This document shows, piece after piece, positions 37,941 to 62,235 of a stretch of 64,000 nucleotides of DNA. The first letter of the stretch is position 1. Every line of letters begins with the position of its first letter. Under the pieces are notes generated by a model that saw only the letters and a list, made by a program, of their open reading frames with translations, ran no database searches and was not told the origin of the DNA. The DNA comes from Siphonodentalium dalli (taxonomy: Eukaryota > Mollusca > Scaphopoda > Gadilida > Siphonodentaliidae), in the NCBI GenBank assembly GCA_032622095.1, contig CP136062.1:5518001-5582000 (forward strand), given 5' to 3'. The translations under genes were made by a program, and so were the position numbers.

Positions 37941-37943
37941 TTT

Positions 37944-38335
37944 AATTTGGTGTTCCAGGTTTATGGGATCGTGCTTTGACACAAACGACGAGATTTGACA
38001 CGTCAACGCTAATGAGTTTGTAAAATGTTATGGTATAGAGCATTGATGTACATGCTGGTATATATTGTGATGTCTAATTTGGCGTTCCAGGTTAACTTGG
38101 ATACTGATTTGACACGGACGACGTGGTTTGACAAATGATGTTGTAAAAGCTTATGTTATAGAGCATTAAAATACATGCTGGTATATATGGAGATGCTTAG
38201 TTTGGCATTCTATGATAATAGATAGCGATTTTTATGTGACAGGCGTGATTCAACATGCCGTGCCAAGGAGTTTCTAAAATCTCAGTTTATAGAGCATTTG
38301 TACAAGAGCATTTGTACATGCTGGTCATTTGAGCC
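37944..38335 (+). repeat. Degenerate ~125-132 bp tandem repeat, three copies
   Basis: The order AATTTGGCGTTCCAGGTT, TTTGACACGGACGACG.G.TTTGACA, GTTATGGTATAGAGCATT, GTACATGCTGGTATATAT recurs with starts near 37944, 38076 and 38199. The third copy is the most diverged. Confidence 0.75.
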
Positions 38336-38464
38336 AAATTAAAATGTGAATCGGTTAAATTGTAATTTCTTAACACAACGTATGAAGTCCTACACACTAG
38401 ACAGTACTATGTTGATATGTATAAACGTGGTGTTACACGCTGATTTCAAAATCATTAGACTAAT

Positions 38465-38678
38465 TATACTTCCATGGTGTAACCAAGGAAGTATATTGTT
38501 TTTCTACTGCGGCCGTTTTCTGTTTAATTGGAAATACTCAGAAACTAATGGGAGGAGGACCGCGAAATCTCTAGAGAATGAAGGCATCTAAGGTCTACTA
38601 AAAATAATGGTATCCGGATGTTGGTCCAATATCTTTTGACAGAGTTATGGCCCTTTTTCGATTATTTTTCATTATTAT
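38465..38678 (+). repeat. A module, copy A1 (hairpin-headed ~214 bp)
   Basis: It opens with a 31-nt hairpin (38465-38495): outer stem TATACTTCC/GGAAGTATA (9 bp), an A-A mismatch, inner stem TGG/CCA and loop TGTAA. The body contains CTACTGCGGCCGTTTTCTG, AATGGGAGGAGGACCGCG, GGCATCTAAGGTCTACT and GAGTTATGGCCCTTTTTCG, and ends TTCATTATTATTA. It differs from A2 (56410-56623) at about one position. It directly precedes the 1.25-kb array, so it shares its right boundary with the array's left boundary. Confidence 0.85.
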
Positions 38679-41600
38679 TATACTTCCATATTTTAACATG
38701 GATGTATATTGTTATTCAATTTTTTATTTTTATTTTTCATTATTTATTCTACTTCTTCTTAATATATTTTGTAACCCTTATATCTCAGAAAGTTAAAAAG
38801 ATAAATCATTGAAATTTGGTAGGTATATGCAACTTGCCAAGTTACAACTGAATGAAACATTTAGGTTTATGTCCTAACTTGCTTTCCAGAGTTATGGCCC
38901 TTAATCAAAAATTTTGGAAAAAGTTTGTGCCCAGATCTTCTCCTATAAGAAGCCAAGCAGCTGAATTCGGGTTACGTAACCATGTTAACTGACGAAAGGG
39001 TACGAATCGGGGAAATTTTCACCAAGGTCCGAAATCAATTTGTTGAACTGGGGAGGGGTGCAAAATTTGTCAATTTTTTTCTTGTCACCGATTCCAACCA
39101 TTTTTACTGTCGTGTATCTATACGACGTACTGATGCTACTCGTGAAAGAATTTTGTAAATCGGTTGAGAAATGGCCAAGTTATAACACATCGAAAAATGT
39201 ACTAATAAAGTCCATGTGTAGAAAGTGCTTGTGCCCAGATCTTCTCCTAGACGAAGCGCAACAGCTGGATTTGGTCTATGTGAGCGTCTTAAACATAGAC
39301 AGAAGACCAAACCAGGAAATTTTGACAAAGGTCCGCTCAAATTTTTCCGGGCTAGGGGAGGGGCAAAATTTTTCAATTTTGTTTTTGTCGCCGATTTGAA
39401 CCAAAATGGTTGTGAAGTATCTATATGATGTACTGAGTGTCATTGTGAGTGAATTTTATGAATCGGTTGACAAATGTAGAAATTGTGGCCCCTTCCTTTT
39501 GTTCAAGTTTACAGAAAATGCACTATGAATTTAAATTCCTTCAACCGATCGTCACGTGTTTGGTGTCATTCGATGGGGAATTTCTAGTACTTCAAAACGA
39601 TTACCTACTTGCGGTATTATGACGATGGAGGCCGGAGATATTCGAAAAGTATGTACTGAACAACATACATATTGGCCTACATAGTAGAATATCGCCACAA
39701 TACCTTACCAAAACCCTGCTAAATATTAAAGGGGCATCGAATATGAACACAATGACGCAAAAATTATCTCGATATCGCGAAAATTGGCCGAGATATGGCA
39801 AATTTTCTACCCGCGTCACCAAATTTCGAGGCATGGGTGGGGGTCACACCAGAACGTTCCAACTGAACACAGAAATGTCAATAAACTATACTATAGACAT
39901 TCCATTCAATTCCGCGCGATTCCCTTATTATACTTCCATATTTTAATATGGATGTATATTGTTATTCAATTTTTTATTTTTATTTTTCATTATTTATTCT
40001 ACTTCTTCTTAATATATTTTGTAACCCTTATATCTCAGAAAGTTAAAAAGATAAATCATTGAAATTTGGTAGGTATATGCACCTTGCCAAGTTACAACTG
40101 AATGAAACATTTAGGTTTATGTCCTAACTTGCTTTCCAGAGTTATGGCCCTTAATCAAAAAATTTGGAAAAAGTTTGTGCCCAGATCTTCTCCTATAAGA
40201 AGCCAAGCAGCTGAATTCGGGTTACGTAACCGTGTTAACTGACGAAAGGGTACGAATCGGGGAAATTTTCACCAAGGTCCGAAATCAATTTGTTGAACTG
40301 GGGAGGGGTGCAAAATTTGTCAATTTTTTTCTTGTCACCGATTCCAACCATTTTTACTGTCGTGTATCTATACGACGTACTGATGCTACTCGTGAAAGAA
40401 TTTTGTAAATCGGTTGAGAAATGGCCAAGTTATAACACATCGAAAAATGTACTAATAAAGTCCATGTGTAGAAAGTGCTTGTGCCCAGATCTTCTCCTAG
40501 ACGAAGCGCAACAGCTGGATTTGGTCTATATGAGCGTCTTAAACATAGACAGAAGACCAAACCAGGAAATTTTGACAAAGGTCCGCTCAAATTTTTCCGG
40601 GCTAGGGGAGGGGCAAAATTTTTCAATTTTGTTTTTGTCGCCGATTTGAACCAAAATGGTTGTGAAGTATCTATATGATGTACTGAGTGTCATTGTGAGT
40701 GAATTTTATGAATCGGTTGAAAATGTAGAAATTGTGGCCCCTTCCTTTTGTTCAAGTTTACAGAAAATGCACTATGAATTTAAATTCCTTCAACCGATCG
40801 TCACGTGTTTGGTGTCATTCGATGGGGAATTTCTAGTACTTCAAAACGATTACCTACTTGCGGTATTATGACGATGGAGGCCGGAGATATTCGAAAAGTA
40901 TGTACTGAACAACATACATATTGGCCTACATAGTAGAATATCGCCACAATACCTTACCAAAACCCTGCTAAATATTAAAGGGGCATCGAATATGAACACA
41001 ATGACGCAAAAATTATCTCGATATCGCGAAAATTGGCCGAGATATGGCAAATTTTCTACCCGCGTCACCAAATTTCGAGGCATGGGTGGGGGTCACACCA
41101 GAACGTTCCAACTGAACACAGAAATGTCAATAAACTATACTATAGACATTCCAATCAATTCCGCGCGATTCCCTTATTATACTTCCATATTTTAATATGG
41201 ATGTATATTGTTATTCAATTTTTTATTTTTATTTTTCATTATTTATTCTACTTCTTCTTAATATATTTTGTAACCCTTATATCTCAGAAAGTTAAAAAGA
41301 TAAATCATTGAAATTTGGTAGGTATATGCACCTTGCCAAGTTACAACTGAATGAAACATTTAGGTTTATGTCCTAACTTGCTTTCCAGAGTTATGGCCCT
41401 TAATCAAAAATTTTGGAAAAAGTTTGTGCCCAGATCTTCTCCTATAAGAAGCCAAGCAGCTGAATTCGGGTTACGTAACCGTGTTAACTGACGAAAGGGT
41501 ACGAATCGGGGAAATTTTCAACAAGGTCCGAAATCAATTTGTTGAACTGGGGAGGGGTGCAAAATTTGTCAATTTTTTTCTTGTCACCGATTCCAACCAT

Positions 41601-43675
41601 TTTTACTGTCGTATATCTATACGACGTACTGATGCTACTCGTGAAAGAATTTTGTAAATCGGTTGAGAAATGGCCAAGTTATAACACATCGAAAAATGTA
41701 CTAATAAAGTCCATGTGTAGAAAGTGCTTGTGCCCAGATCTTCTCCTAGACGAAGCGCAACAGCTGGATTTGGTCTATGTGAGCGTCTTAAACATAGACA
41801 GAAGACCAAACCAGGAAATTTTGACAAAGGTCCGCTCAAATTTTTCCGGGCTAGGGAGGGGCAAAATCTTTCAATTTTGTTTTTGTCGCCGATTTGAACC
41901 AAAATGGTTGTGAAGTATCTATATGATGTACTGAGTGTCATTGTGAGTGAATTTTATGAATCGGTTGACAAATGTAGAAATTGTGGCCCCTTCCTTTTGT
42001 TTAAGTTTACAGAAAATGCACTATGAATTTAAATTCCTTCAACCGATCGTCACGTGTTTGGTGTCATTCGATGGGGAATTTCTAGTACTTCAAAACGATT
42101 ACCTACTTGCGGTATTATAACGATGGAGGCCGGAGATATTCGAAAAGTATGTACTGAACAACATACATATTGGCCTACATAGTAGAATATCGCCACAATA
42201 CCTTACCAAAACCCTGCTAAATATTAAAGGGGCATCGAATATGAACACAATGACGCAAAAATTATCTCGATATCGCGAAAATTGGCCGAGATATGGCAAA
42301 TTTTCTACCCGCGTCACCAAATTTCGAGGCATGGGTGGGGGTCACACCAGAACGTTCCAACTGAACACAGAAATGTCAATAAACTATACTATAGACATTC
42401 CAATCAATTCCGCGCGATTCCCTTATTATTCTTCCATATTTTAATATGGATGTATATTGTTATTCAATTTTTTATTTTTATTTTTCATTATTTATTCTAC
42501 TTCTTCTTAATATATTTTGTAACCCTTATATCTCAGAAAGTTAAAAAGATAAATCATTGAAATTTGGTAGGTATATGCACCTTGCCAAGTTACAACTGAA
42601 TGAAACATTTAGGTTTATGTCCTAACTTGCTTTCCAGAGTTATGGCCCTTAATCAAAAAATTTGGAAAAAGTTTGTGCCCAGATCTTCTCCTATAAGAAG
42701 CCAAGCAGCTGAATTCGGGTTACGTAACCGTGTTAACTGACGAAAGGGTACGAATCGGTGAAATTTTCAACAAGGTCCGAAATCAATTTGTTGAACTGGG
42801 GAGGGGTGCAAAATTTGTCAATTTTTTTCTTGTCACCGATTCCAACCATTTTTACTGTCGTGTATCTATACGACGTACTGATGCTACTCGTGAAAGAATT
42901 TTGTAAATCGGTTGAGAAATGGCCAAGTTATAACACATCGAAAAATGTACTAATAAAGTCCATGTGTAGAAAGTGCTTGTGCCCAGATCTTCTCCTAGAC
43001 GAAGCGCAACAGCTGGATTTGGTCTATGTGAGCGTCTTAAACATAGACAGAAGACCAAACCAGGAAATTTTGACAAAGGTCCGCTCAAATTTTTCCGGGC
43101 TAGGGAGGGGCAAAATTTTTCAATTTTGTTTTTGTCGCCGATTTGAACCAAAATGGTTGTGAAGTATCTATATGATGTACTGAGTGTCATTGTGAGTGAA
43201 TTTTATGAATCGGTTGACAAATGTAGAAATTGTGGCCCCTTCCTTTTGTTCAAGTTTACAGAAAATGCACTATGAATTTAAATTCCTTCAACCGATCGTC
43301 ACGTGTTTGGTGTCATTCGATGGGGAATTTCTAGTACTTCAAAACGATTACCTACTTGCGGTATTATGACGATGGAGGCCGGAGATATTCGAAAAGTATG
43401 TACTGAACAACATACATATTGGCCTACATAGTAGAATATCGCCACAATACCTTACCAAAACCCTGCTAAATATTAAAGGGGCATCGAATATGAACACAAT
43501 GACGCAAAAATTATCTCGATATCGCGAAAATTGGCCGAGATATGGCAAATTTTCTACCCGCGTCACCAAATTTCGAGGCATGGGTGGGGGTCACACCAGA
43601 ACGTTCCAACTGAACACAGAAATGTCAATAAACTATACTATAGACATTCCAATCAATTCCGCGCGATTCCCTTAT

Positions 43676-46600
43676 TATACTTCCATATTTTAATATGGAT
43701 GTATATTGTTATTCAATTTTTTATTTTTATTTTTCATTATTTATTCTACTTCTTCTTAATATATTTTGTAACCCTTATATCTCAGAAAGTTAAAAAGATA
43801 AATCATTGAAATTTGGTAGGTATATGCATCTTGCCAAGTTACAACTGAATGAAACATTTAGGTTTATGTCCTAACTTGCTTTCCAGAGTTATGGCCCTTA
43901 ATCAAAAAATTTGGAAAAAGTTTGTGCCCAGATCTTCTCCTATAAGAAGCCAAGCAGCTGAATTCGGGTTACGTAACCGTGTTAACTGACGAAAGGGTAC
44001 GAATCGGGGAAATTTTCAACAAGGTCCGAAATCAATTTGTTGAACTGGGGAGGGGTGCAAAATTTGTCAATTTTTTTCTTGTCACCGATTCCAACCATTT
44101 TTACTGTCGTATATCTATACGACGTACTGATGCTAATCGTGAAAGAATTTTGTAAATCGGTTGAGAAATGGCCAAGTTATAACACATCGAAAAATGTACT
44201 AATAAAGTCCATGTGTAGAAAGTGCTTGTGCCCAGATCTTGTCCTAGACGAAGCGCAACAGCTGGATTTGGTCTATGTGAGCGTCTTAAACATAGACAGA
44301 AGACCAAACCAGGAAATTTTGACAAAGGTCCGCTCAAATTTTTCCGGGTTAGGGGAGGGGCAAAATTTTTCAATTTTGTTTTTGTCGCCGATTTGAACCA
44401 AAATGGTTGTGAAGTATCTATATGATGTACTGAGTGTCATTGTGAGTGAATTTTATGAATCGGTTGACAAATGTAGAAATTGTGGCCCCTTCCTTTTGTT
44501 CAAGTTTACAGAAAATGCACTATGAATTTAAATTCCTTCAACCGATCGTCACGTGTTTGGTGTCATTCGATGGGGAATTTCTAGTACTTCAAAACGATTA
44601 CCTACTTGCGGTATTATGACGATGGAGGCCGGAGATATTCGAAAAGTATGTACTGAACAACATACATATTGGCCTACATAGTAGAATATCGCCACAATAC
44701 CTTACCAAAACCCTGCTAAATATTAAAGGGGCATCGAATATGAACACAATGACGCAAAAATTATCTCGATATCGCGAAAATTGGCCGAGATATGGCAAAT
44801 TTTCTACCCGCGTCACCAAATTTCGAGGCATGGGTGGGGGTCACACCAGAACGTTCCAACTGAACACAGAAATGTCAATAAACTATACTATAGACATTCC
44901 AATCAATTCCGCGCGATTCCCTTATTATACTTCCATATTTTAATATGGATGTATATTGTTATTCAATTTTTTATTTTTATTTTTCATTATTTATTCTACT
45001 TCTTCTTAATATATTTTGTAACCCTTATATCTCAGAAAGTTAAAAAGATAAATCATTGAAATTTGGTAGGTATATGCACCTTGCCAAGTTACAACTGAAT
45101 GAAACATTTAGGTTTATGTCCTAACTTGCTTTCCAGAGTTATGGCCCTTAATCAAAATTTTTGGAAAAAGTTTGTGCCCAGATCTTCTCCTATAAGAAGC
45201 CAAGCAGCTGAATTCGGGTTACGTAACCGTGTTAACTGACGAAAGGGTACGAATCGGGGAAATTTTCACCAAGGTCCGAAATCAATTTGTTGAACTGGGG
45301 AGGGGTGCAAAATTTGTCAATTTTTTTCTTGTCACCGATTCCAACCATTTTTACTGTCGTGTATCTATACGACGTACTGATGATACTCGTGAAAGAATTT
45401 TGTAAATCGGTTGAGAAATGGCCAAGTTATAACACATAGAAAAATGTACTAATAAAGTCCATGTGTAGAAAGTGCTTGTGCCCAGATCTTCTCCTAGACG
45501 AAGCGCAACAGCTGGATTTGGTCTATGTGAGCGTCTTAAACATAGACAGAAGACCAAACCAGGAAATTTTGACAAAGGTCCGCTCAAATTTTTCCGGGCT
45601 AGGGGAGGGGCAAAATTTTTCAATTTTGTTTTTGTCGCCGATTTGAACCAAAATGGTTGTGAAGTATCTATATGATGTACTGAGTGTCATTGTGAGTGAA
45701 TTTTATGAATCGGTTGACAAATGTAGAAATTGTGGCCCCTTCCTTTTGTTCAAGTTTACAGAAAATGCACTATGAATTTAAATTCCTTCAACCGATCGTC
45801 ACGTGTTTGGTGTCATTCGATGGGGAATTTCTAGTACTTCAAAACGATTACCTACTTGCGGTATTATGACGATGGAGGCCGGAGATATTCGAAAAGTATG
45901 TACTGAACAACATACATATTGGCCTACATAGTAGAATATCGCCACAATACCTTACCAAAATCCTGCTAAATATTAAAGGGGCATCGAATATGAACACAAT
46001 GACGCAAAAATTATCTCGATATCGCGAAAATTGGCCGAGATATGGCAAATTTTCTACCTGCGTCACCAAATTTCGAGGCATGGGTGGGGGTCACACCAGA
46101 ACGTTCCAACTGAACACAGAAATGTCAATAAACTATACTATAGACATTCCAATCAATTCCGCGCGATTCCCTTATTATACTTCCATATTTTAATATGGAT
46201 GTATATTGTTATTCAATTTTTTATTTTTATTTTTCATTATTTATTCTACTTCTTCTTAATATATTTTGTAACCCTTATATCTCAGAAAGTTAAAAAGATA
46301 AATCATTGAAATTTGGTAGGTATATGCACCTTGCCAAGTTACAACTGAATGAAACATTTAGGTTTATGTCCTAACTTGCTTTCCAGAGTTATGGCCCTTA
46401 ATCAAAATTTTTGGAAAAAGTTTGTGCCCAGATCTTCTCCTATAAGAAGCCAAGCAGCTGAATTCGGGTTACATAACCGTGTTAACTGACGAAAGGGTAC
46501 GAATCGGGGAAATTTTCACCAAGGTCCGAAATCAATTTGTTGAACTGGGGAGGGGTGCACAATTTGTCAATTTTTTTCTTGTCACCGATTCCAACCATTT

Positions 46601-47425
46601 TTACTGTCGTGTATCTATACGACGTACTGATGCTACTCGTGAAAGAATTTTGTAAATCGGTTGAGAAATGGCCAAGTTATAACACATCGAAAAATGTACT
46701 AATAAAGTCCATGTGTAGAAAGTGCTTGTGCCCAGATCTTCTCCTAGACGAAGCGCAACAGCTGGATTTGGTCTATGTGAGCGTCTTAAACATAGACAGA
46801 AGACCAAACCAGGAAATTTTGACAAAGGTCCGCTCAAATTTTTCCGGGCTAGGGGAGGGGCAAAATTTTTCAATTTTGTTTTTGTCGCCGATTTGAACCA
46901 AAATGGTTGTGAAGTATCTATATGATGTACTGAGTGTCATTGTGAGTGAATTTTATGAATCGGTTGACAAATGTAGAAATTGTGGCCCCTTCCTTTTGTT
47001 CAAGTTTACAGAAAATGCACTATGAATTTAAATTCCTTCAACCGATCGTCACGTGTTTGGTGTCATTCGATGGGGAATTTCTAGTACTTCAAAACGATTA
47101 CCTACTTGCGGTATTATGACGATGGAGGCCGGAGATATTCGAAAAGTATGTACTGAACAACATACATATTGGCCTACATAGTAGAATATCGCCACAATAC
47201 CTTACCAAAACCCTGCTAAATATTAAAGGGGCATCGAATATGAACACAATGACGCAAAAATTATCTCGATATCGCGAAAATTGGCCGAGATATGGCAAAT
47301 TTTCTACCCGCGTCACCAAATTTCGAGGCATGGGTGGGGGTCACACCAGAACGTTCCAACTGAACACAGAAATGTCAATAAACTATACTATAGACATTCC
47401 AATCAATTCCGCGCGATTCCCTTAT
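43676..47425 (+). repeat. Higher-order repeat block 1 (copies 5-7)
   Basis: Marker variants of copies 5, 6 and 7 recur in the same order in copies 8, 9 and 10, 3,750 bp later. Copy 5 has GCATCTTGCC, GCTAATCGTG, CTTGTCCTAG and CCGGGTTAGG; copy 6 has GATGATACTCG, AACACATAGA, AAAATCCTGC and CTACCTGCG; copy 7 has GGGTGCACAATTTG. Confidence 0.85.
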
Positions 47426-50400
47426 TATACTTCCATATTTTAATATGGATGTATATTGTTATTCAATTTTTTATTTTTATTTTTCATTATTTATTCTACT
47501 TCTTCTTAATATATTTTGTAACCCTTATATCTCAGAAAGTTAAAAAGATAAATCATTGAAATTTGGTAGGTATATGCATCTTGCCAAGTTACAACTGAAT
47601 GAAACATTTAGGTTTATGTCCTAACTTGCTTTCCAGAGTTATGGCCCTTAATCAAAAAATTTGGAAAAAGTTTGTGCCCAGATCTTCTCCTATAAGAAGC
47701 CAAGCAGCTGAATTCGGGTTACGTAACCGTGTTAACTGACGAAAGGGTACGAATCGGGGAAATTTTCAACAAGGTCCGAAATCAATTTGTTGAACTGGGG
47801 AGGGGTGCAAAATTTGTCAATTTTTTTCTTGTCACCGATTCCAACCATTTTTACTGTCGTATATCTGTACGACGTACTGATGCTAATCGTGAAAGAATTT
47901 TGTAAATCGGTTGAGAAATGGCCAAGTTATAACACATCGAAAAATGTACTAATAAAGTCCATGTGTAGAAAGTGCTTGTGCCCAGATCTTGTCCTAGACG
48001 AAGCGCAACAGCTGGATTTGGTCTATGTGAGCGTCTTAAACATAGACAGAAGACCAAACCAGGAAATTTTGACAAAGGTCCGCTCAAATTTTTCCGGGTT
48101 AGGGGAGGGGCAAAATTTTTCAATTTTGTTTTTGTCGCCGATTTGAACCAAAATGGTTGTGAAGTATCTATATGATGTACTGAGTGTCATTGTGAGTGAA
48201 TTTTATGAATCGGTTGACAAATGTAGAAATTGTGGCCCCTTCCTTTTGTTCAAGTTTACAGAAAATGCACTATGAATTTAAATTCCTTCAACCGATCGTC
48301 ACGTGTTTGGTGTCATTCGATGGGGAATTTCTAGTACTTCAAAACGATTACCTACTTGCGGTATTATGACGATGGAGGCCGGAGATATTCGAAAAGTATG
48401 TACTGAACAACATACATATTGGCCTACATAGTAGAATATCGCCACAATACCTTACCAAAACCCTGCTAAATATTAAAGGGGCATCGAATATGAACACAAT
48501 GACGCAAAAATTATCTCGATATCGCGAAAATTGGCCGAGATATGGCAAATTTTCTACCCGCGTCACCAAATTTCGAGGCATGGGTGGGGGTCACACCAGA
48601 ACGTTCCAACTGAACACAGAAATGTCAATAAACTATACTATAGACATTCCAATCAATTCCGCGCGATTCCCTTATTATACTTCCATATTTTAATATGGAT
48701 GTATATTGTTATTCAATTTTTTATTTTTATTTTTCATTATTTATTCTACTTCTTCTTAATATATGTTGTAACCCTTATATCTCAGAAAGTTAAAAAGATA
48801 AATCATTGAAATTTGGTAGGTATATGCACCTTGCCAAGTTACAACTGAATGAAACATTTAGGTTTATGTCCTAACTTGCTTTCCAGAGTTATGGCCCTTA
48901 ATCAAAATTTTTGGAAAAAGTTTGTGCCCAGATCTTCTCCTATAAGAAGCCAAGCAGCTGAATTCGGGTTACGTAACCGTGTTAACTGACGAAAGGGTAC
49001 GAATCGGGGAAATTTTCACCAAGGTCCGAAATCAATTTGTTGAACTGGGGAGGGGTGCAAAATTTGTCAATTTTTTTCTTGTCACCGATTCCAACCATTT
49101 TTACTGTCGTGTATCTATACGACGTACTGATGATACTCGTGAAAGAATTTTGTAAATCGGTTGAGAAATGGCCAAGTTATAACACATAGAAAAATGTACT
49201 AATAAAGTCCATGTGTAGAAAGTGCTTGTGCCCAGATCTTCTCCTAGACGAAGCGCAACAGCTGGATTTGGTCTATGTGAGCGTCTTAAACATAGACAGA
49301 AGACCAAACCAGGAAATTTTGACAAAGGTCCGCTCAAATTTTTCCGGGCTAGGGGAGGGGCAAAATTTTTCAATTTTGTTTTTGTCGCCGATTTGAACCA
49401 AAATGGTTGTGAAGTATCTATATGATGTACTGAGTGTCATTGTGAGTGAATTTTATGAATCGGTTGACAAATGTAGAAATTGTGGCCCCTTCCTTTTGTT
49501 CAAGTTTACAGAAAATGCACTATGAATTTAAATTCCTTCAACCGATCGTCACATGTTTGGTGTCATTCGATGGGGAATTTCTAGTACTTCAAAACGATTA
49601 CCTACTTGCGGTATTATGACGATGGAGGCCGGAGATATTCGAAAAGTATGTACTGAACAACATACATATTGGCCTACATAGTAGAATATCGTCACAATAC
49701 CTTACCAAAATCCTGCTAAATATTAAAGGGGCATCGAATATGAACACAATGACGCAAAAATTATCTCGATATCGCGAAAATTGGCCGAGATATGGCAAAT
49801 TTTCTACCTGCGTCACCAAATTTCGAGGCATGGGTGGGGGTCACACCAGAACGTTCCAACTGAACACAGAAATGTCAATAAACTATACTATAGACATTCC
49901 AATCAATTCCGCGCGATTCCCTTATTATACTTCCATATTTTAATATGGATGTATATTGTTATTCAATTTTTTATTTTTATTTTTCATTATTTATTCTACT
50001 TCTTCTTAATATATTTTGTAACCCTTATATCTCAGAAAGTTAAAAAGATAAATCATTGAAATTTGGTAGGTATATGCACCTTGCCAAGTTACAACTGAAT
50101 GAAACATTTAGGTTTATGTACTAACTTGCTTTCCAGAGTTATGGCCCTTAATCAAAATTTTTGGAAAAAGTTTGTGCCCAGATCTTCTCCTATAAGAAGC
50201 CAAGCAGCTGAATTCGGGTTACGTAACCGTGTTAACTGACGAAAGGGTACGAATCGGGGAAATTTTCACCAAGGTCCGAAATCAATTTGTTGAACTGGGG
50301 AGGGGTGCACAATTTGTCAATTTTTTTCTTGTCACCGATTCCAACCATTTTTACTGTCGTGTATCTATACGACGTACTGATGCTACTCGTGAAAGAATTT

Positions 50401-51175
50401 TGTAAATCGGTTGAGAAATGGCCAAGTTATAACACATAGAAAAATGTACTAATAAAGTCCATGTGTAGAAAGTGCTTGTGCCCAGATCTTCTCCTAGACG
50501 AAGCGCAACAGCTGGATTTGGTCTATGTGAGCGTCTTAAACATAGACAGAAGACCAAACCAGGAAATTTTGACAAAGGTCCGCTCAAATTTTTCCGGGCT
50601 AGGGGAGGGGCAAAATTTTTCAATTTTGTTTTTGTCGCCGATTTGAACCAAAATGGTTGTGAAGTATCTATATGATGTACTGAGTGTCATTGTGAGTGAA
50701 TTTTATGAATCGGTTGACAAATGTAGAAATTGTGGCCCCTTCCTTTTGTTCAAGTTTACAGAAAATGCACTATGAATTTAAATTCCTTCAACCGATCGTC
50801 ACGTGTTTGGTGTCATTCGATGGGGAATTTCTAGTACTTCAAAACGATTACCTACTTGCGGTATTATGACGATGGAGGCCGGAGATATTCGAAAAGTATG
50901 TACTGAACAACATACATATTGGCCTACATAGTAGAATATCGCAACAATACCTTACCAAAACCCTGCTAAATATTAAAGGGGCATCGAATATGAACACAAT
51001 GACGCAAAAATTATCTCGATATCGCGAAAATTGGCCGAGATATGGCAAATTTTCTACCTGCGTCACCAAATTTCGAGGCATGGGTGGGGGTCACACCAGA
51101 ACGTTCCAACTGAACACAGAAATGTCAATAAACTATACTATAGACATTCCAATCAATTCCGCGCGATTCCCTTAT
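47426..51175 (+). repeat. Higher-order repeat block 2 (copies 8-10)
   Basis: It is the duplicate of 43676-47425 by shared variants (see block 1). Copy 10 is a mosaic: it has the copy-7 marker GGGTGCACAATTTG plus the copy-6/9 markers AACACATAGA and CTACCTGCG, which suggests gene conversion or unequal exchange after the block duplication. Confidence 0.8.
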
Positions 51176-51817
51176 TATACTTCCATATTTTAATATGGAT
51201 GTATATTGTTATTCAATTTTTTATTTTTATTTTTCATTATTTATTCTACTTCTTCTTAATATATTTTGTAACCCTTATATCTCAGAAAGTTAAAAAGATA
51301 AATCATTGAAATTTGGTAGGTATATGCATCTTGCCAAGTTACAACTGAATGAAACATTTAGGTTTATGTCCTAACTTGCTTTCCAGAGTTATGGCCCTTA
51401 ATCAAAAATTTTGGAAAAGGTTTGTGCCCAGATCTTCTCCTATAAGAAGCCAAGCAGCTGAATTCGGGTTACGTAACCGTGTTAACTGACGAAAGGGTAC
51501 GAATCGGGGAAATTTTCACCAAGGTCCGAAATCAATTTGTTGAACTGGGGAGGGGTGCAAAATTTGTCAATTTTTTTCTTGTCACCGATTCCAACCATTT
51601 TTACTGTCGTGTATCTATACGACGTACTGATGCTATTCGTGAAAGAATTTTGCAAATCGGTTGAGAAATGGCCAAGTTATAACACATCGAAAAATGTACT
51701 AATAAAGTCCATGTGTAGAAAGTGATTGTGCCCAGATCTTCTCCTAGACGAAGCGCAACAGCTGGATTTGGTCTATGTGAGCGTCTTAAACATAGACAGA
51801 AGACCAAACCAGGAAAT

Positions 51818-54192
51818 GCGAATGTCAAAAATTACACCAATGACCACTGTCAATATATTTCAACATCCATTCTTTTTTTCGCGCACTGTGTTAATTGTTA
51901 TGTTGGCTAATGGGTAATCACTCAAAACAATGTCGGCTGTCTGTCTTGTCAATCGGCCATGATTCTGCAGTTTTATCATGATGCGGCTTAAAAATGGCAT
52001 ATTTTGAGACCAAAAACGGTCAAAATTTGCTAGTTTTTAAATAGTAGTTCGTTTTGTTTTCACTTATTTTAAAACGCGCATTTACGAAACTGTGGTGTCA
52101 GCCGGATAATGTTATAACACTTCTCCGCATGGACCACGTTTTCCTAAAGCACAATCCGTCTATGCGCGGACTTTCGCTTGCAGTTCTCAATTCAATTGAA
52201 ACTATTTGATATCCGTTCGCGTACCCGTAAACCATTTTTTTTATATTATATTTTTTAATTGAATGAACGGGAGTCAGCGTGTCCCGACCGACGCCCCAAC
52301 CTTGCCACCCCTTAGTCGCTAATTTTGGTATCATAATTTCGGAACGTGACACTTTGCGGTTTGGTATTGGTTTACCATCTGACATAGTGCATACTTTTGT
52401 CGAATTCAGATCTGACCATTTAAAAACTGTCTCTTTATCATCTGTATGTGTCACGAGTGAAAATATATGACTTTATTGTCCGACTGTTAAGACCGCCGAT
52501 TGCATATTTCGCATTAATTGGACGAGACGTAATGTAAAGTCTTATAACTTACGCATAGGCGACAACGTCGACGTCGTACATTCGTCCGCTAATCGGAAAA
52601 TATACCAAAAATGCCTTAAAGCGCCGTCTAATTCACCACCTGCGTGTATTCAAGAATATGAATCACACCAAAATTAAGCGAATTGCATATGGAATGTGTA
52701 GGTATAAGCTGCCATGTATATATCATTTCCAGAATGCTACCATTTCATGACAATCTATTTGTTAAAATAAAACACCTTAAACTGTTGGGAACATCGCGAT
52801 ATAGGCAAGCGAGCAAAGAGAGTTTAATGTCATCGTACCATACGCTATTTCGCTGTTGCGAAATGGGTGGTCGTTCAATGTAGCATAATTACATTGAACG
52901 ACATATATAAGTATGTTTTTGTGTGAATAATGATTGTTAACTTGGTATTATGAATTTATGCATGACTGTGAAGACTTGCAATAACGTATTAAATGGTAAA
53001 ATACGCGCATTCATATCCGTATATTCCCAAGAATGTCCGTCTATTTTACAAGCTCGACATGCTATATTTGTTTATGGTATACTACCGTTTCAACACATCG
53101 GCTATTTATCATTTTGCTGGTGAGAAGGCGTATGTTCAGTTTGGTGCTATTTATGTGCACAGAAAAGGCACCATTACTCGGGAAAGCAACATACCGAAAT
53201 GCATATAGATATACGCGAATCATGTTACGTTCTCACACAATGCAGCTTTCCCAAATCTGTGCTCTTTAAAATAGAATTGGCTGCATGACTGGCCTACTTC
53301 TGATGGCACAGTGTGTTACGCACCTGTCCGATTAAGTCGCTTTGAACCCAAAATGTATACAAAATTCGCACAAGCTGTGGAAAAGTTCGCGATCTTGGAC
53401 AGTCAGTACAATCGGTATAAACGTTTGTAACGACATAACGTGTCTTGACAGCATTACCTGTTATGCTATATTGATATGTTTATAAATTATATTTAATGCT
53501 TGATTCCTGATACACATATATAGTGACATTTCAGTGATCTTCTAGAACGTTCCCGAGCATGATAGAACTTCAAATAAAACATATTCGCCTTTGTCCCATT
53601 CTGGTGATTTGGGCTCTTTCTTAGCATGTTACTAATTTTATAATAAGACGTAATCAAGACATGTGTTATCAGTTGTGTAAGTGATTGCCATTCGCGCATA
53701 ATTATTTCATAAATAAATATATCCGCTGCACGTAGATATAACCGTCACTTATATTACTAGCCGTTGAAATCACTGACCCGACAAACTGATAAACCAAGAC
53801 TTAACAGTCTTGGCAAATTACAGATCGGCATTGATTTAAAACTTCGCACTTCATTGTGGACAGACTATAACTATCCGTATCTTTCACAGAATATACCATC
53901 CCATGGCATTGCAGTTATAATTTTTAACATTTCAAGTCTTTAATTTGGAATATAGGCACAAGAGATAGTGTACACATGTGTGTATGTATACTAATAAAAC
54001 CGAACTGTGTGTGTGTTCATTTGTTTGTCAGTCTGACCTGCTGTTGGTGACCAACCGGTTGGATCATGACAAAAATAAAATTGGAACACACGGTGAATTG
54101 TTACGTGGAGTGTCATGGGATAGGTACATCTGACATCATGTGATTAAATTTGGAATTCATGAATAATTTAAAAACATTTTTACATCTATATC
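51818..54192. other. Intergenic right of the array
   Basis: Unique DNA. It contains one 118-codon minus-strand frame (52454-52098) with an ordinary amino-acid mix but no motif or splice context that I can defend, and a hairpin at 52870-52902. A GT-rich patch lies at 54007-54018. Confidence 0.45.
52870..52902. repeat. Perfect 13-bp hairpin
   Basis: GTCGTTCAATGTA (52870-52882) faces TACATTGAACGAC (52890-52902) around a 7-nt loop GCATAAT. It is too short for a typical miRNA precursor. It could be a cruciform or an element terminus. Confidence 0.7.
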
Positions 54193-54194
54193 TA

Positions 54195-54364
54195 CAGTAT
54201 ACCCTAAGTAATCGACTCCTTAAACATAGCAGAATTATGGGTAACATTTCAGGATTTAGTGGGAAATATAGCCTGTTGACATTCATTCGAAAGCTCTCCT
54301 GAATCCCGAAAAGTTACACATAATTCTGCTGTGTTTAAGGGGTCGATTACATAGGGCATTACTG
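54195..54364. mobile_element. 170-bp MITE with TA target duplication (Tc1/mariner-like)
   Basis: The ends are CAGTATACCCTAAGTAATCG and, on the other strand, CAGTAATGCCCTATGTAATC. The inverted match continues for about 70 bp (GAC.CCTTAAACA.AGCAGAATTATG.GTAAC), leaving a short centre. TA flanks both ends (54193-54194 and 54365-54366), as expected for TA-target elements whose ends begin CAGT. There is no transposase, so it is non-autonomous. The superfamily call is inferred from termini and TA only. Confidence 0.75.
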
Positions 54365-54856
54365 TATATTTCCGAATTTTTGTCTCTCTGCCTGTGTCTG
54401 TCTTCTATAAAAATTACAGGAGACCATCTAGATGATACCAAAGGGGTCTACTAGGGGTCACTTTTTACGAGAAATATAATTTCAAAAGTAGCCTCATTCT
54501 TCATCTTTTATTTTTGCGAACTAATGTGTTTATGATGTTCATGAAGTATGCATGGTTGTAACTAAATAAATACTTCAATAGTTGTGGAACGGATTAATCG
54601 AGATAAACAAAATTACGATCGAAAAGATGAGCCACTACTTATATTCCATGACTTTTTAAAGTTATAGATATAGTTAGAATGATTGTGGTTATGGTTACGC
54701 TAGAGCATGGTTATGCTTATAAAACATTTAGTATTGGGACATGGTACGTGTTGCCGATAGGTATGGTTATGATTAAGGTTTGGGTTATGGGAAAGGTAAT
54801 GATTGAGAGGAGATTTGGATAGGAATATATATGATAATTATATATATGGAAGTATC

Positions 54857-54876
54857 AAACTTCCAATTGGAAGTTT
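54857..54876. repeat. Perfect 20-bp palindrome at the edge of B1
   Basis: AAACTTCCAATTGGAAGTTT is a perfect palindrome, preceded by TATGGAAGTAT, which is the reverse complement of the module hairpin arm ATACTTCCATA. It lies 25 bp before the B1 head and probably marks the module boundary. Confidence 0.8.
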
Positions 54877-54900
54877 AAAACTTCTAGTTATTATTATTAT

Positions 54901-56409
54901 TATACTGGACACTTTTGCAACCCTTATTACTCTAAAAGTAACAGGAGTAGCACACTAAAACTTGGTACGTATCTTGTGATCACAGAGTTGTATGCCATCG
55001 TCGCATAACGAATATTGTCCGCATTTTCCCCGAGGAGTTATCTCCCTTTATCTGAAAAAATGTCATTTGATTATCTCGGAAATTATAAGGAGCAGAGCAT
55101 CGAAAATTGGACTGTATGCACATCTCGATATGCCCTACTGCCCACGGGCATCAGAACATGTGTCCGCGCTTTCCCTGAGGAGTTACCGCCCATAGTTGGC
55201 AAACCTCTATTTGATTGTACTCTGTTGTCCTCTTGTATCATTCCAGATAACTGCATGTGGTTTTCATAGTCGTGTTGACCGTTGTCAGTTTAGTCAGAGA
55301 AGGAAAATTTGACAGGGTCGGACATATATTTTGACACTGGGGTGGGGGGCAAATTTTTTGAAAAATAAAATTTTGATTGACATTCATATATTTAAGTTTA
55401 TGTATTTCCCGAACGAAAACAAACTCAAACCGGAAAGGATTTTTGAAATCCGAGAAGAAATGCAAGAGTTACGGGCCCTCAAAGTTTGCAATTTGGGACC
55501 ATGTGCTTGATAACACATCTCCTCCGAAGATATCGAACATAGGATGTCATCTGATACGCCAATGTGTGCGGACTGAAGAGGGCACGCGGTGGGCTAAATT
55601 TTGCCAGTGTCGGTTCATTATTGTGGGTCTGGGGAGGGGTGGTCCGTGGTACCAATTTTTAATTCTTCTCGGAATCAGATGAAACTTGGAATATAACATT
55701 TGCAACATCAGCCGATCTAGAAAGTGAAAGAATTTCGAAAATCCATCAAAAACTGAAAGAATTGCGGCCCTCAAACTTTGCAATTTTGGGCCCGTGTGCT
55801 TGATAACACATCTCCTCCGAAGATATCGAACATAGTATGTCATCTGATACGAAAATGCGTACGGACTGAAGACGGCACGCGGTGGGCCAAATTTTTCCAG
55901 TGTCGGTTCAGTATTGTGGGTCTGGGGAGGGGCGGTCCGTGGTACCAATTTTTAATTCTTCTCGGAATCGGATTAAACTTGGAATATAACATTTGCAACA
56001 TCAGCCGATCTGGAAGCTGAAAACAGATCGTAAATCCGTTGAAAAATGGCGGAGATTTTGGCCGTCCAAGTTTTAATTTGGGCCCATATGCTTTCCAATA
56101 ATCAAAGTGTTATCCGTCTCCAAATCAGATGAAATTTATACTATGCAATCTATGTTAGCAGCAAATCACAAAACTGGAAACAATTTTAAAATCCGTTGGA
56201 AACTAACGGAGTTACGGGGCCTCAAACTTAGCATTTTGTGCCAGGGGTTGATGTTTTCCCAATCCCGTCACCCAATTTAGAGGCAGGGGTGGGGTCACGT
56301 CCAAACACTTGAGATCAACCTACACATGTTAGGACAACATATAATCACCATACTTTATATTTTACGTCCATAAAGTGCGATTCTTTTCACTCATGATTGT
56401 TCCTATTAT
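54901..56409 (+). repeat. B module, copy B1 (~1.5 kb, two internal subrepeats)
   Basis: Head TATACTGGACACTTTTGCAACCCTTATTACTC, then AAAACTTGGTACGTATCTTG and GAGTTATCTCCCTTTATCTG. The middle has two ~293-bp subrepeats (about 55440-56040) with GAAGATATCGAACATAGGATG, GGGCACGCGGTGGGC and GGGGAGGGG.GGTCCGTGG. The tail is CCCGTCACCCAATTT.GAGGCAG then GGGTCACGTCCAAACAC. Subrepeat length near a multiple of three keeps a minus-strand frame open (55948-55547), which should not be read as a gene. Confidence 0.85.
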
Positions 56410-56623
56410 TATACTTCCATGGTGTAACCAAGGAAGTATATTGTTTTTCTACTGCGGCCGTTTTCTGTTTAATTGGAAATACTCAGAAACTAATGGGAGG
56501 AGGACCGCGAAATCTCTTGAGAATGAAGGCATCTAAGGTCTACTAAAAATAATGGTATCCGGATGTTGGTCCAATATCTTTTGACAGAGTTATGGCCCTT
56601 TTTCGATTATTTTTCATTATTAT
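56410..56623 (+). repeat. A module, copy A2
   Basis: Hairpin head at 56410-56440 as in A1. Essentially the only difference from A1 is TCTCTTGAG for TCTCTAGAG. It ends in TTCATTATTAT. Confidence 0.9.
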
Positions 56624-56843
56624 TATACTTCCATGGTGTAACCAAGGAAGTATATTGTTTTTCTACTGCGGCCGTTTTCAGTTTAATTGGAAATACTCAT
56701 AAACTAATGGGAGGAGGACCGCAAAATCTCTAGCGAATGTAGGCATCTAAGGTCTACTAAAAATAATGGTATCCGGATGTTGGTCCAATATCTTTTGACA
56801 GAGTTATGGCCCTTTTTCGATTATTTTTCATTATTATTATTAT
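56624..56843 (+). repeat. A module, copy A3
   Basis: It is a tandem neighbour of A2 with a handful of substitutions (TTTTCAGTTTAATT, CTCATAAACTAATG, CTCTAGCGAATGTAGG) and a longer (ATT)n end that leads straight into the B2 head. Confidence 0.9.
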
Positions 56844-58938
56844 TATACTGGACACTTTTGCAACCCTTATTACTCGAAAAGTACCAGGATTAGCACACTG
56901 AAACTTGGTACGTATCTTGGGATCAGAGAATTGTATGCCATCGTCGCATAACGAATATTGTCCGCGTTTTCTCCGAGGAGTTATCTCCCTTTATCTGAAA
57001 AAATGTCATTTTATTATCTCGGAAATTATAAGGAGCAGAGCATCGAAAATTGGACTGTATGCACACCTCGATATGTTCTACTTCCCACGGGCATCAGAAC
57101 TTGTGTCCGCGCTTTCCCTGAGGAGTTACCGCCCATAGTTGGCAAACCTCTATTTGATTGTACTCTGTTGTCCTCTTGTATCATTCAAGATAACTGCATG
57201 TGGTTTTCATAGACGTGTTGACCGTTGTCAGTTTAGTCAGAGAAGGAAAATTTGACAGGGTCGGACATATATTTTGACACTGGGGTGGGGGGCAAATTTT
57301 TTGAAAAATAAAATTTTGATTGACATTTATATATTTAAGTTTATTTATTTCCCGAACGAAAACAAACTCATACCGGAAAGGATTTTTGAAATCCGAGAAG
57401 AAATGCAAGAGTTATGGGCCCTCAAAGTTTGCAATTTGGGCCCATGTGCTTGATAACACATCTCCTCCGAAGATATCGAACATAGGATATCATCTGATAC
57501 GCCAACGTGTGCGGACGGAAGAGAGCACGCGGTGGGCCAAATTTTGCCAGTGTCTGTTCATTATTGTGGGTCTGGGGAGGGGTGGTCCGTGGTACCAATT
57601 TTTAATTCTTCTCCGAATCAGATGAAACTTGGAATATAACATCTCCAACATCAGTCGATCTAGAAATTGAAAGAATTTCGAAAATCCATCGAAAACTGAC
57701 ATAATTGCAGGCCCTCAAACTTTGCAATTTTGGACCCATGTGCTTGATAACACATCTCCTCCGAAGATATCGAACATAGGATGTCATCTGATACGAAAAT
57801 ACGTACGGACTGAAGAGGGCACGCGGTGGGCCAAATTTTGCCAGTGTCGGTTCAGTATTGTGGGTCTGGGGAGGGGTGGTCCGTGGTACCAATTTTTAAT
57901 TCTTCTCCGAATCAGATGAAACTTGGAATATAACATCTCCAACATCAGTCGATCTAGAAATTGAAAGAATTTCGAAAATCCATCGAAAACTGACATAATT
58001 GCGGGCCCTCAAACTTTGCAATTTTGGACCCATGTGCTTGATAACACATCTCCTCCGAAGATATCGAACATAGGATGTCATCTGATACGAAATTACGTAC
58101 GGACTGAAGAGGGCACGCGGTGGGCCAAATTTTGCCAGTGTCGGTGCAGTATTGTGGGTCTGGGGAGGGGTGGTCCATGGTACCAATTTTTAATTCTTTT
58201 CCGAATCGGATGAAACTTGGAATATAACATCTGCAACCTCAGCCGATCTAGAAACTGAAAGAATTATGAAAATCCATCGAAAACTGAAAGAATTGCGGGC
58301 CCTCAAACTTTGCAATTTTGGCCCATGTGCTTGATAACACATCTTTTCCGAAGATATCGAACCTAGGATGTAATCTGCTACGATAATCCGTACGGACTGA
58401 AGAGGGCACGCGGTGGGTGTAATTTTTCCAGTGTCGGTTCAGTATTGTGGGTCAAGGGAGGGGTAGTCCGTGGTACCATTTTTGTATTCTTCTCCGAATC
58501 AGATGAAACTTGGAATGTAACATCTACCATATACGTTGATCACGAAGCTGAAAACAGATCGTAAATCCGTGTAAAAATGGCGGAGATTTTAGCCATCCAA
58601 TTTTGAATTTGGGCCCATATGCTTTCCAATAACCAAATTGTTATTCGGGTCCAAATCAGATGAAATTTATACTATGAAATCTAGGTCAGCGGCAGATTGC
58701 AAAACTGAAAACAATTTTTAAATCCGTTGGAAACTAACGGAGTTACGGGCCCTCAAACTTCGCATTTTGTGCCAGGGTTGATGTTTTCCCAATCCCGTCA
58801 CCCAATTTCGAGGTAGGGTGGGGTCACGTCCAAACACTTGAGATCAACCTACACATGTTAGGACAACATATACTCACCATACTTCATATTTTCCGTCCCG
58901 AAACTTCGATTCTTTCCACTCATGATTTTCCCTATTAT
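56844..58938 (+). repeat. B module, copy B2 (~2.1 kb, four internal subrepeats)
   Basis: Same head and tail as B1. The middle contains four ~294-bp subrepeats (starts about 57400, 57695, 57989, 58283) instead of two. The 586-bp length difference from B1 equals two subrepeats. The second and third subrepeats are nearly identical, marking a recent internal duplication. Confidence 0.9.
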
Positions 58939-59160
58939 TATACTTCCATGGTGTAACCAAGGAAGTCGATTGTTTTTGTACTGGTGCCGTTTTTCGTTTA
59001 TATGGAAATACCCAAAAAGTAATTGCACTAGAAAGACGAAACCTGTAGTAAATATGTAGGCATCTGAGGTCTACTAATAATAAAGGTATCCGCATGTCGG
59101 TCCAATGTTTCTTGGCGGAGTTATGGCCCTTTTACGATTATTTTTCACTATTATTATTAT
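58939..59160 (+). repeat. A module, copy A4 (diverged subtype)
   Basis: The hairpin head is damaged on its right arm (GGAAGTCGAT). The body carries TGGAAATACCCAAAAAGTAA, AAGACGAAACCTGTAGTAAA and GGCATCTGAGGTCTACTAAT, a subtype shared only with A5. Confidence 0.85.
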
Positions 59161-60646
59161 TATACTCAACACTTTTGCAACGCCCAAATCTCTGAAAGTA
59201 TTAGGATTAGAAAACTGAAGGTTGGTAAGTATGTTGGGGTAAATGAGTTCTATGCCTTTGGCTCATAACGAATATTGTCCGCGATTACCCCGCGGAGTTA
59301 TCTCCCTTTATATGAAAACATGTCATTTTATTATCTCGGAAATTATAAGGAGCAGAGCATCGAAAATTGGACCGTATGCACAACTCGATATGCCCTACTG
59401 CCCACGGGCATCAAAACTTGTGTCCGCGCTTTACCTGATGAGTTACCGCCCATAAATAGGCAAATCTCTATTTGATTTGCTATGATGTACTCATTCCAGA
59501 TAACTGCATTTGGATTTCATAGTCGTGTTGACCGTTGTCAGTTTAGTCTGAGAAAGAAAATTGAACAGGGTCGGACATATATTTTGACGTTGGGGTGGGG
59601 GCAAAATTTTCGAGAAATAAAGTTTTGATTGACATTCATCTATTTCAGTATGTGGATTCCCCGAACGAAAACAAACCCACACCGGAAAGGAGTTTTGAAA
59701 TCCGAGAAGAAATGCAAGAGTTACGGGCCCTCAAAGTTTGCAATTTGGGCCCATGTGCTTGTGACCACATCTCCTCAGATGTCGAAGTTTGGATGTCAAC
59801 TGATACGCCAACGTGTGCGGACGGAAGAGGGCACGCGGTGGGCCAAATTTTGACAGTGTCGGTTCATTATTGTGGGTCTGGGGAGGGCTGGTCCGTGGTA
59901 CCAATTTTGTATTCTTCTCCGAATCAGATGAAACTTGGAATATAACATCTGCAACATCAGCCGATCTAGAAACTGAAAGAACTTCGAAAATCCATCGAAA
60001 ACTGAAATAATTGCAGGCCGTCAAACTTTGCAATTTTGGGCCCATGTGCTTGTGACCACATCTCCTCCGAAGATATCGAACATACGATGTCATCTGAAAT
60101 GCAAATGTGTGCGGACTGAAGAGGGCACGCGGTGGGCCAAATTTTGACTGTGTCGGTTCATTATTGTGGGTCTGGGGAGGGCTGGTCCGTGGTACCAAAA
60201 TCCGAATCAGATGAAACTTGGAATATAACATCTGCAACATCAGCCGATCTCGAAGCTGAAAACAGATCGTGAATCCGTTGGAAAATGGCGGAGATTTTAG
60301 CAGTCAAGTTTGAATTTGGGCCCATAATTATGCTTTCCAATAGTCAAAGTGTTATCCGTCTCCAAATGAAATTTACACTATGCAATCTATGTCAGCAGCA
60401 AATCACAAAACTGGATACAATTTTAAAATCCGTTGGAAACTAACGGAGTTACAGGGCCTCAAAATTAGCATTTTGTGCCAGGGGTTGATGTTTTCCCAAT
60501 CCCGTCACCCAATTTCGAGGCAGGGGTGTGGTCACGTCCAAACACTTGAGATCAGCTTACACATGTTAGGACAACATATAATCACCATACTTCATATTTT
60601 CCGTCCATAAACTGCGATTCTGTCCACTCATGATTGTTCCTATTAT
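59161..60646 (+). repeat. B module, copy B3 (~1.5 kb, two internal subrepeats)
   Basis: Head TATACTCAACACTTTTGCAACGCCCAAATC, diverged from B1/B2 (ACTTTTGCAACCCTTATTACTC), then GAAGGTTGGTAAGTATGTTGG. Two internal subrepeats with GTGACCACATCTCCTC in place of GATAACACATCTCCTCC. Tail as in B1. A 169-codon minus-strand frame (60240-59731) spans both subrepeats and repeats the same peptide twice; it is a by-product of repeat length. Confidence 0.85.
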
Positions 60647-60855
60647 TATACTTCCATGGTGTAACCAAGGAAGTATATTGTTTTTGTACTGGTGCCTTTT
60701 TCGTTTATTTGGAAATACCCAAAAAGTAATTGCACTAGAAAGACGAAACCTGTAGTGAATATGTAGGCATCTGAGGTCTACTAAAAATAAAGGTATCCAA
60801 TGTTTCTTGGCGGAGTTATGGCCCTTTTACGATTATTTTTCACTATTATTATTAT
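60647..60855 (+). repeat. A module, copy A5
   Basis: Intact hairpin head at 60647-60677; body of the A4 subtype with small deletions (GGTATCCAATGTTTCTTGGC). Confidence 0.85.
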
Positions 60856-61155
60856 TATACTCAACACTTTTGCAACGCCCAAATCTCTGAAAGTATTAGG
60901 ATTAGAAAACTGAAGGTTGGTATGTATGTTGGGGTAAATGAGTGCTATGCCTTTGGCTCATAACGAATATTGTCCGCGATTACCCCGCGAAGTTATCTCC
61001 CTTTATATAAAAACATGTCATTTTATTATCTCGGAAATTATAAGGAGCAGAGCATCGAAAATTGGACCGTATGCACACCTCGATATGCCCTACTGCCCAC
61101 GGGCATCAAAACTTGTGTCCGCGCTTTACCGGATGAGTTACCGCCCATACATAGA
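60856..61155 (+). repeat. B module, copy B4, truncated to about 300 bp
   Basis: It follows B3 from TATACTCAACACTTTTGC through GGATGAGTTACCGCCCATA and then departs near 61150 into unrelated sequence. Only the head region survives. Confidence 0.85.
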
Positions 61156-61334
61156 GACACACTATACACCAGGATGAATAAACCAATTTTCTTTTTTCTT
61201 CTTTTTTTTTAGTACAGAGCTCTACATTTTGTATTGCATATTCCGAATTGGACGAGTGATGCTGCCCGAATATACCGCGTAAAAATCTTTTTTCCCAGGA
61301 CTTTCCGTGTTACAGGGTAAGGAAATATTGCACC

Positions 61335-62235
61335 TATTTTTCCCTCCAAATCCAAACTGGCTTATTAAAGAGCAAGATAATGTCGTAGCAGGTACATTGA
61401 CATACTGTATGTACGTCCCAACAGTTTGACCGCTATACTTTAAATTCAAACATCGAGATAAAAAAATTTTGACAAGTTCATCTGATGGGTAGTATTCACG
61501 CGCATCTACAGTGTGATTTTCTATTTTCCAGATGGAACGGTTTACTCGTGACAACGCTATAAACATAAATATGCATACTTCAGTAGTATATCACTAACAT
61601 ATTTTTAGCCCCAAATCCAAACGGGCTAATGAAGGAGCGAGTTTAATGCAGTGGCATGTAAGCCGGTATACTGTAGGTACGCCTCCAAAATTTGACATCT
61701 CTACTATAAACGCAACCCGCTCAATGGAGTGTTTGTGTCGGGGTGGGTTCAGATTTGGCAAATCCACCGAAAATCAAATGGGGAAAATGACTCCGAAAAT
61801 CAGATATTGAGATAAAAACTTTTCGACGAGTGGATGTCATTAGTAGTATCTAAACGCAAGATTAGTATGTTTTTCAAAGTTTCAGAGTGGACGGTTTAAC
61901 CCTTGTAGCGTGTAACGTTAACGGGTGATATATATTACTCAAATTCAAACCCACTCTTCATGACGCAAATGCAAACGGACTTATCAATGAGCAAGGCAAA
62001 TGCATGAATATGTTCACCGATATACTATAGGAATGTCCGCTCTACTATAAAAGTAACCTGTCCAACGGAGAGGTGGCGTACCCCCCGGGGAGGGTCGAGG
62101 CTTTTGGCAAATTACGCCGAAACTCGTAAACGGGGAAAACATGGAAAATCGCGACACAAGTGTTTTATATTTTGAGCACTGCGTGTATTTGGTAGTATAT
62201 ACGGACAACATTAGTTTTAGAGCAGACGGGTTAGC
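61335..62235 (+). repeat. Strongly degenerate ~270-360 bp tandem repeat, three copies
   Basis: The order CAAATCCAAAC.GGCTTAT.AA.GAGCAAG, GTATACTGTAGGTACG.CC, CCGCTCTACTATAAA, ATTGAGATAAAAA.TTT.GAC.AGT and GGTAGTAT..ACGC occurs near 61348, 61612 and 61965, with TTT.CA.A.TGGA/CGGTTTA at the ends. Function unknown. Confidence 0.55.

Follow-up and report, generated by a model that had tools for sequence, protein, structure and literature searches.

Nested Helentron-like elements with tandemly repeated 5' ends in the scaphopod Siphonodentalium dalli suggest a route from mobile element to satellite DNA

A stretch of 64,000 nucleotides from Siphonodentalium dalli (assembly GCA_032622095.1, contig CP136062.1, positions 5,518,001 to 5,582,000 of the forward strand; in the following, the window) carries two related repetitive elements, one nested inside the other. 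We interpret them as probable non-autonomous transposons of the Helentron/HINE-like (Helitron2-type) kind, in each of which tandem units that carry the 5' end are followed by an incomplete final unit, a non-coding 3' body and a single 3' end. Four kinds of building block are distinguished: U is the 1.25-kb array unit, A a 214-bp front module, B the larger modules, and V a third unit type found elsewhere in the genome. Positions are those of the window, and both elements lie on the plus strand.

The outer, AB-type element extends from 38465 to 62852 and measures 8179 bp without its insert. It is delimited by a 5' hairpin following unique DNA, a matching 3' end and a junction that is restored when the insert is taken out. 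It begins with the front module A0 (38465-38678), which comprises the hairpin (38465-38495), a core repeat and a TTA tract. Beyond the insert follow the remainder of the TTA tract with B1 (54888-56409), A1 (56410-56623), A2 (56624-56843), B2 (56844-58938), A3 (58939-59160), B3 (59161-60646), A4 (60647-60855) and a partial B4 (60856-61154). The presumed 3' body (61155-62811) is assigned by its position between B4 and the matching 3' end. This end consists of a subterminal inverted repeat (subTIR; 62812-62825) in which A bp 1-14 recur exactly in inverted orientation, followed by a palindrome of 14 bp (62829-62842) and TCTAG (62848-62852). The inner, U-type element (38679-54887, 16209 bp) sits inside the TTA tract between A0 and B1 and is delimited by its ends and by the joining of its flanks. 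It contains ten full units that each have a 5' hairpin (U1-U10, 38679-51175), an incomplete last unit U11 of 642 bp (51176-51817, corresponding to U 1-642), a 3' body (51818-54843), a subTIR which is an exact inverted copy of U bp 2-13 (54844-54855), a 20-bp palindrome (54857-54876) and TCTAG (54883-54887). A sequence-only reading had confined the feature to 38679-61155; the stretch between the arrays and a further 1.7 kb to the right belong to it as well. Inside the U 3' body, a 180-bp self-inverted repeat (77.6%) lies at 54190-54369.

U was used as the query against the genome (2.2 Gb, nine contigs), which gave at least 43 matches; genome counts are lower bounds because 40 of the 2194 candidates were scored. 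Fourteen genome stretches with U-like matches (designated by L-numbers, e. g. L009-L022) were taken for comparison. In the window and these stretches together, a pattern search found 85 hairpin 5' ends, most of which are tandem copies and not independent events. Fold analysis placed the hairpin at bp 1-31 of A and at about bp 1-30 of U, where it contains one T-T mismatch. Its alleles keep the fold through two-sided changes, namely ATAT/ATAT in U and V, ATGT/ACAT in L019 and TGGT/ACCA in A (a survey that counts most palindromes once per strand). The boundary hairpin proposed earlier is borne out. All 85 hairpins are preceded by T, and in 82 the last four bases before them are TTAT. They were found after a unit tail (71), in the front T/TTA tract of another unit (10; eight assigned by script and two, L011:1666 and L012:2476, by eye), after unique DNA (3) and after a 3' end (1). 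The front tracts that sit before other 5' ends are 45-77 bp long. Each element is a row of units with a complete 5' end each, plus a single 3' end, and 5' ends repeatedly sit in the front T/TTA tract of relatives.

The nesting in the window can be followed at the level of single bases. A0 and A1 are identical at 213 of 214 positions despite lying 18 kb apart, as would be expected if both belong to one AB element that was split by the U element. Removal of 38679-54887 brings A0 next to the TTA tract and B1, and the rejoined sequence can be aligned with A2-B2 across the junction; its tract has seven extra bases, one of them out of phase. Apart from the number of TTA repeats and one extra T, no target duplication is apparent at the site. 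These alignments indicate that a U-type element inserted in the (TTA)n tract of the AB-type element spanning 38465-62852. Related arrangements were seen elsewhere: L011 has A and B modules behind a U front tract, L010 and L012 have young U heads behind front tracts that are older, and in L019 a V-like remainder with a TTA tract stands after a U 3' end. The view that the region holds one family in two amplification states therefore needs modification: it is one modular family, but present as two different elements, one inside the other.

The 3' ends of both elements are built alike. In each, a stretch of the element's own 5' end recurs in inverted orientation (12/12 bp in U, 14/14 bp in AB) and is followed by a palindrome (20 bp in U, 14 bp in AB) and TCTAG|T. 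In a test devised after the ends had already been seen, the inverted copy alone occurred in 3 (U) and 0 (AB) of 1000 shuffles, and copy and palindrome together in none of 1000 for either element. For the A head, the best fit is to the 3' end of its own element (14 bp). The window contains 15 perfect palindromes of at least 14 bp, not counting one long AT run, and two of them are those at the element 3' ends. TCTAG|T was present at all five ends found, i. e. the two in the window and those in L009, L014 and L019, the three of the 14 fetched stretches with the U-end pattern. Four different sequences, each starting with T, follow the U 3' end in the window and these three stretches; in the latter the end lies directly before other repeat sequence. 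Unit tails were considered as element ends and ruled out, as no matching subTIR was present there. The earlier expectation that copies end at TATAC and TTATTA holds for the 5' side, where all 85 hairpins lie at T|TATAC-like ends. It fails on the 3' side: TTATTA is the unit tail and the tract that receives insertions, and the true ends are TCTAG at 54887 and 62852.

Another type of DNA transposon, or a foldback element with palindromic ends that inserts in TTA tracts, would also be compatible with the 5' hairpin, the T/TTA-rich targets and the lack of a known enzyme. Such an element would not be expected to have the asymmetric ends observed here, with a hairpin at the 5' end and a subTIR plus separate palindrome at the 3' end as in HINEs, nor a nested site with no apparent duplication beyond TTA number and one T. 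We regard this explanation as very improbable.

A Helentron/HINE-like assignment agrees with most of the published features. HINEs such as HINE-Mo of a mite and DINE-1 of Drosophila are non-autonomous Helentrons, and as described in PMC4067079 they share with the present elements a 5' subTIR, a matching subTIR before the 3' end, a 3' palindrome, apparently a T-rich or TT target, and the absence of coding capacity in what was scanned here; tandem repeats or microsatellites occur in some HINE copies, as they do here. The 5' subTIR, at an offset of 0-1 nt (2-4 nt in the published description), has a complementary inverted copy adjacent to it, and the inverted copy near the 3' end is complete (12/12 and 14/14 bp). 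The 20- and 14-bp palindromes lie 11 and 10 bp from the end in U and AB, respectively, within the described 8-35 bp. T stands before 85 of 85 hairpins (mostly tandem ones, with three in unique DNA) and after five of five 3' ends. What differs from HINE as described there is that the tandem repeat includes the 5' end itself, giving many 5' ends per element. A canonical Helitron would have a 5' TC and be inserted between A and T, whereas here TATAC is preceded by T; the proposal that the ends are HINE-like and not those of a canonical Helitron is thus confirmed at the 5' end. At the 3' end, the CTRR of canonical Helitrons with a palindrome of 16-20 nt about 11 bp before it has a counterpart in CTAG with the 20-bp (U) and 14-bp (AB) palindromes, 11 and 10 bp away. 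The case for HINE membership is a structural one and falls short of a mechanistic proof.

Similar combinations have been described in other organisms. Bivalve Cg_HINE/Pearl elements, as described in PMC7492417, likewise have a subTIR with an inverted copy, a microsatellite-like tract, satellite-like repeats, a 3' subTIR and a palindrome; there, short central repeats lie between the flanks, whereas here units of 1.25-2.3 kb contain the left flank. This likeness is one of description and not of comparison with Pearl sequences. Fusarium FoHeli elements are Helitron2-like and, according to PMC5148889, combine several 5' termini with one 3' end, for which self-insertion was proposed as the source. 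They share this arrangement with the elements studied here, but their repeated 5' pieces are shorter than 200 bp, against long units here that form arrays of at least ten. In plants, long tandem arrays of centromeric Helitrons with multiple 5' ends and a single 3' end are known (Xiong et al. 2016, as cited in PMC12628747 and PMC5148889); the copies in them are described as truncated. Short Helitrons with multiple 5' ends and self-insertion are already published, and the present elements are a variant in which the tandem unit with the 5' end is unusual.

The relationship between U and the A and B modules was assessed by Smith-Waterman alignment. Whole U scored 803, 743 and 709 against B1, B2 and B3, compared with 365, 436 and 403 for the best of 100 dinucleotide shuffles. 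Segment by segment, the U head (89-235) aligns with 13-161 of B1 and B2 (in B3 only 13-72), the middle (262-540) with B1 330-605, the second subrepeat (587-698) with 351-462 of B1 and B2, and the tail (1124-1243) with B1 1355-1483. In all 12 comparisons of these four segments with B1-B3 the score was reached by none of 200 shuffles, and the order was kept. The claim of a common head, middle and tail, arranged alike in the array unit and the B modules, thus withstood the shuffled controls. U 840-1110 has no detectable B partner (its score was reached by 21 to 197 of 200 shuffles), and plain blastn at an E-value of 1e-5 found no match between U and B. Since the shuffle tests were passed where plain blastn was blank, the similarity is real but old. 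The string TATTATTATAC occurs nine times in the window against 0.13 expected. For the U hairpin (bp 1-35), a match was obtained with the A module (0 of 200 shuffles reached the score) but not with B (31-59 of 200). U thus corresponds to a shortened A plus B, where the earlier reading had paired it with B alone.

With a profile from the pooled B head repeats, the U head was recovered at 32.1 bits and two A modules at 14.7 and 10.6 bits; among 50 shuffled sets the highest score was 6.5 bits. Profiles from the second B head repeats (6.1 bits for U, shuffled maximum 7.7) and from the first (2.0 bits for A1, shuffled maximum 4.8) stayed below their controls. By the pooled profile, a single core repeat of about 150 bp is present, in different copies, as A bodies, B head repeats and U heads. 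The V unit (1393 bp, in L012) bridges U and B: besides a perfect hairpin and a TTA-like tract it has head repeats of the B kind (66% identical to B3 in 463 aligned columns) and a second half of the U kind (86.8% in 876 columns). The homologous tails in U, V and B show that tandem organisation predates the divergence of the unit types.

These comparisons also bear on the possibility that A and B are separate element families which share the target TTAT|T and hence pile up alternately. A and B both start with TATAC after TATTAT, and A1 stands alone before A2, as this would predict. However, hairpin, T/TTA tract and a B-like part are combined within single units of U and of V, A3-B3 and A4-B4 match in both halves, and the AB 3' end copies the end of A, while B is without an ACTTCC hairpin of its own. 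Separate families are therefore very unlikely.

The array in the window comprises full units of 1248-1250 bp that differ pairwise at 1-16 positions. The pairs U5/U8, U6/U9 and U7/U10 differ at 1, 3 and 5 positions and the remaining full-unit pairs at 5-16. A recent trimer duplication, U5-U7/U8-U10 (43676-51175), is thus probable, with the reservation that the third pair is not distinctive, U6/U10 also differing at 5. Elsewhere, a 1247-bp unit type occurs at five places on four contigs (L013-L015, L017 and L019-L022), with differences of 0.0-0.3% both inside one place and from place to place; the unit comparison as a whole comprised 52 units. The units of L018 contain, near U 19-31, a foreign insert of about 0.9 kb that has a long inverted repeat and is repeated along with the unit at a period of 2158 bp. 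Arrays adjoin runs of N in L013, L015 and L021, so that the array lengths there are minima. The region 51819-54900 is a dispersed repeat, with 89-98% identical pieces in L009, L010, L014, L018 and L019. The array-body junction lies at U 642 in the window, L010 and L018, and differs in L009, where U 996 joins 51839. Another 3' flank follows the arrays in L012, L020 and L022 (L020-L022 99.4% over 3.5 kb, L020-L012 99.8% over 1.3 kb). It has weak collinear similarity to the window body (score 70, shuffles up to 45), and in L022 no Pfam-type match in six frames. Separately, 61642-61882 in the presumed AB 3' body resembles the L022 flank (score 124 against 31-35 in six shuffles), possibly through another dispersed repeat or as a link between the two body types.

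Several of these observations would fit DNA that is mainly satellite, in which arrays arise by unequal crossing-over and circle reinsertion and the element-like ends are relics of no present role: the probable trimer duplication, the near-identity of the 1247-bp-type units, the amplification of the L018 insert along with its unit, and the arrays next to assembly gaps. A classical satellite would form a stand-alone array without element ends, and the arrays of the window lie between element 5' and 3' ends. Against this explanation, the same 5' start and the same junction and body occur at unlinked places, flank and array have spread jointly in L020 and L022, and 5' ends recur within the narrow tract of other units. 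A mainly satellite origin is therefore unlikely in our view, and mobile elements with tandem 5' ends are preferred.

No coding capacity was identified in the parts of the elements that were scanned. Six-frame Pfam scans (stops as X, without positive control) gave no match in 1-11402, 14900-29901, 29880-38467 and 51819-54901, nor did five of six frames of 61155-64000; 11403-14899 and the arrays were left out, save two frames of 39929-42677. A match to HPIP was put aside at 20 bits, below the cut-off of 22.1 bits. Both elements are non-coding within the regions scanned. No known RNAs were found at Rfam gathering scores, exact element patterns had no matches in viral_contigs and genome_contigs, and the boundary letter strings had none in the literature.

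A possible relative lies near 28 kb on the minus strand, where a profile from A and U matches 28.3-28.4 kb at 18.4 bits (shuffled maximum 5.1), the whole-element alignment being weak. This Pearl/HINE-like stretch (about 28075-28594) has the palindrome TACCATAGTATGGTA, a GTCY microsatellite, repeats ending in GAGTTATGGCCCC and a second left-flank copy after them. The window also contains a 47-bp satellite of 74 copies (11438-14895, 98% matches) and a G+C-rich palindrome that is present three times, as CGCTTTCGGCGCGCGCCGAAAGCG or as its core (20899-20922, 21056-21079 and 21263-21280), close to a run of 41 AT.

Some points weigh against a Helentron/HINE-like assignment. The distances from subTIR to end, 32 bp in U and 27 bp in AB, are slightly under the approximately 38-60 bp given in the published description. 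The U 5' end fits the AB 3' end (11 bp) almost as well as its own (12 bp). The unit tails have no matching subTIR, which spoke against HINE until the true 3' ends were located, and the alternative flank of L012, L020 and L022 shows no matching 3' end within the 1.3-3.9 kb examined. The scanned stretches contain no coding partner, and no genome-wide search for one was made. The assignment does not account for A1 directly beside A2. Finally, the tandem state is old, so that its first origin is not visible in the window.

A possible mechanism is that a rolling-circle enzyme, supplied in trans, initiates at one of the 5' hairpins and terminates at the first 3' end. Self-insertion in the front tract would increase the number of 5' ends, since a later round could run from the outer 5' end to the inner 3' end. 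The arrays could then be lengthened and homogenised by unequal exchange or rolling-circle read-through. The window, where a U element occupies the front tract of an AB element, may have caught this process half-way: if the enzyme began at A0 and ended at the first 3' end, it could move a two-start chimera. More tentatively, and with less than even confidence, we propose a transposon of many starts and one stop, in which every unit offers a usable 5' origin, all share one terminator, copies may have any number of units, and relatives land preferentially in the element's own front T/TTA tract.

The conversion of transposons to satellites has usually been argued from end states. Here the intermediate stages can be followed in the sequence itself, nucleotide by nucleotide. 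They include self-insertions nested in one another, front tracts that precede other 5' ends, an incomplete last unit whose junction is fixed, what is probably a fresh duplication of a trimer, and units that are nearly identical at five places on four contigs. Repeat annotation may split one such element into separate satellites and unknown repeats. If the present reading holds, the unit number of a copy would record the 5' end that was used, which is a testable prediction on rolling-circle starts. The finding suggests a route from jumping element to satellite DNA; on the proposal of many starts and one stop, self-insertion, re-mobilisation and array growth would form a cycle that produces satellite DNA while the element is still mobile.

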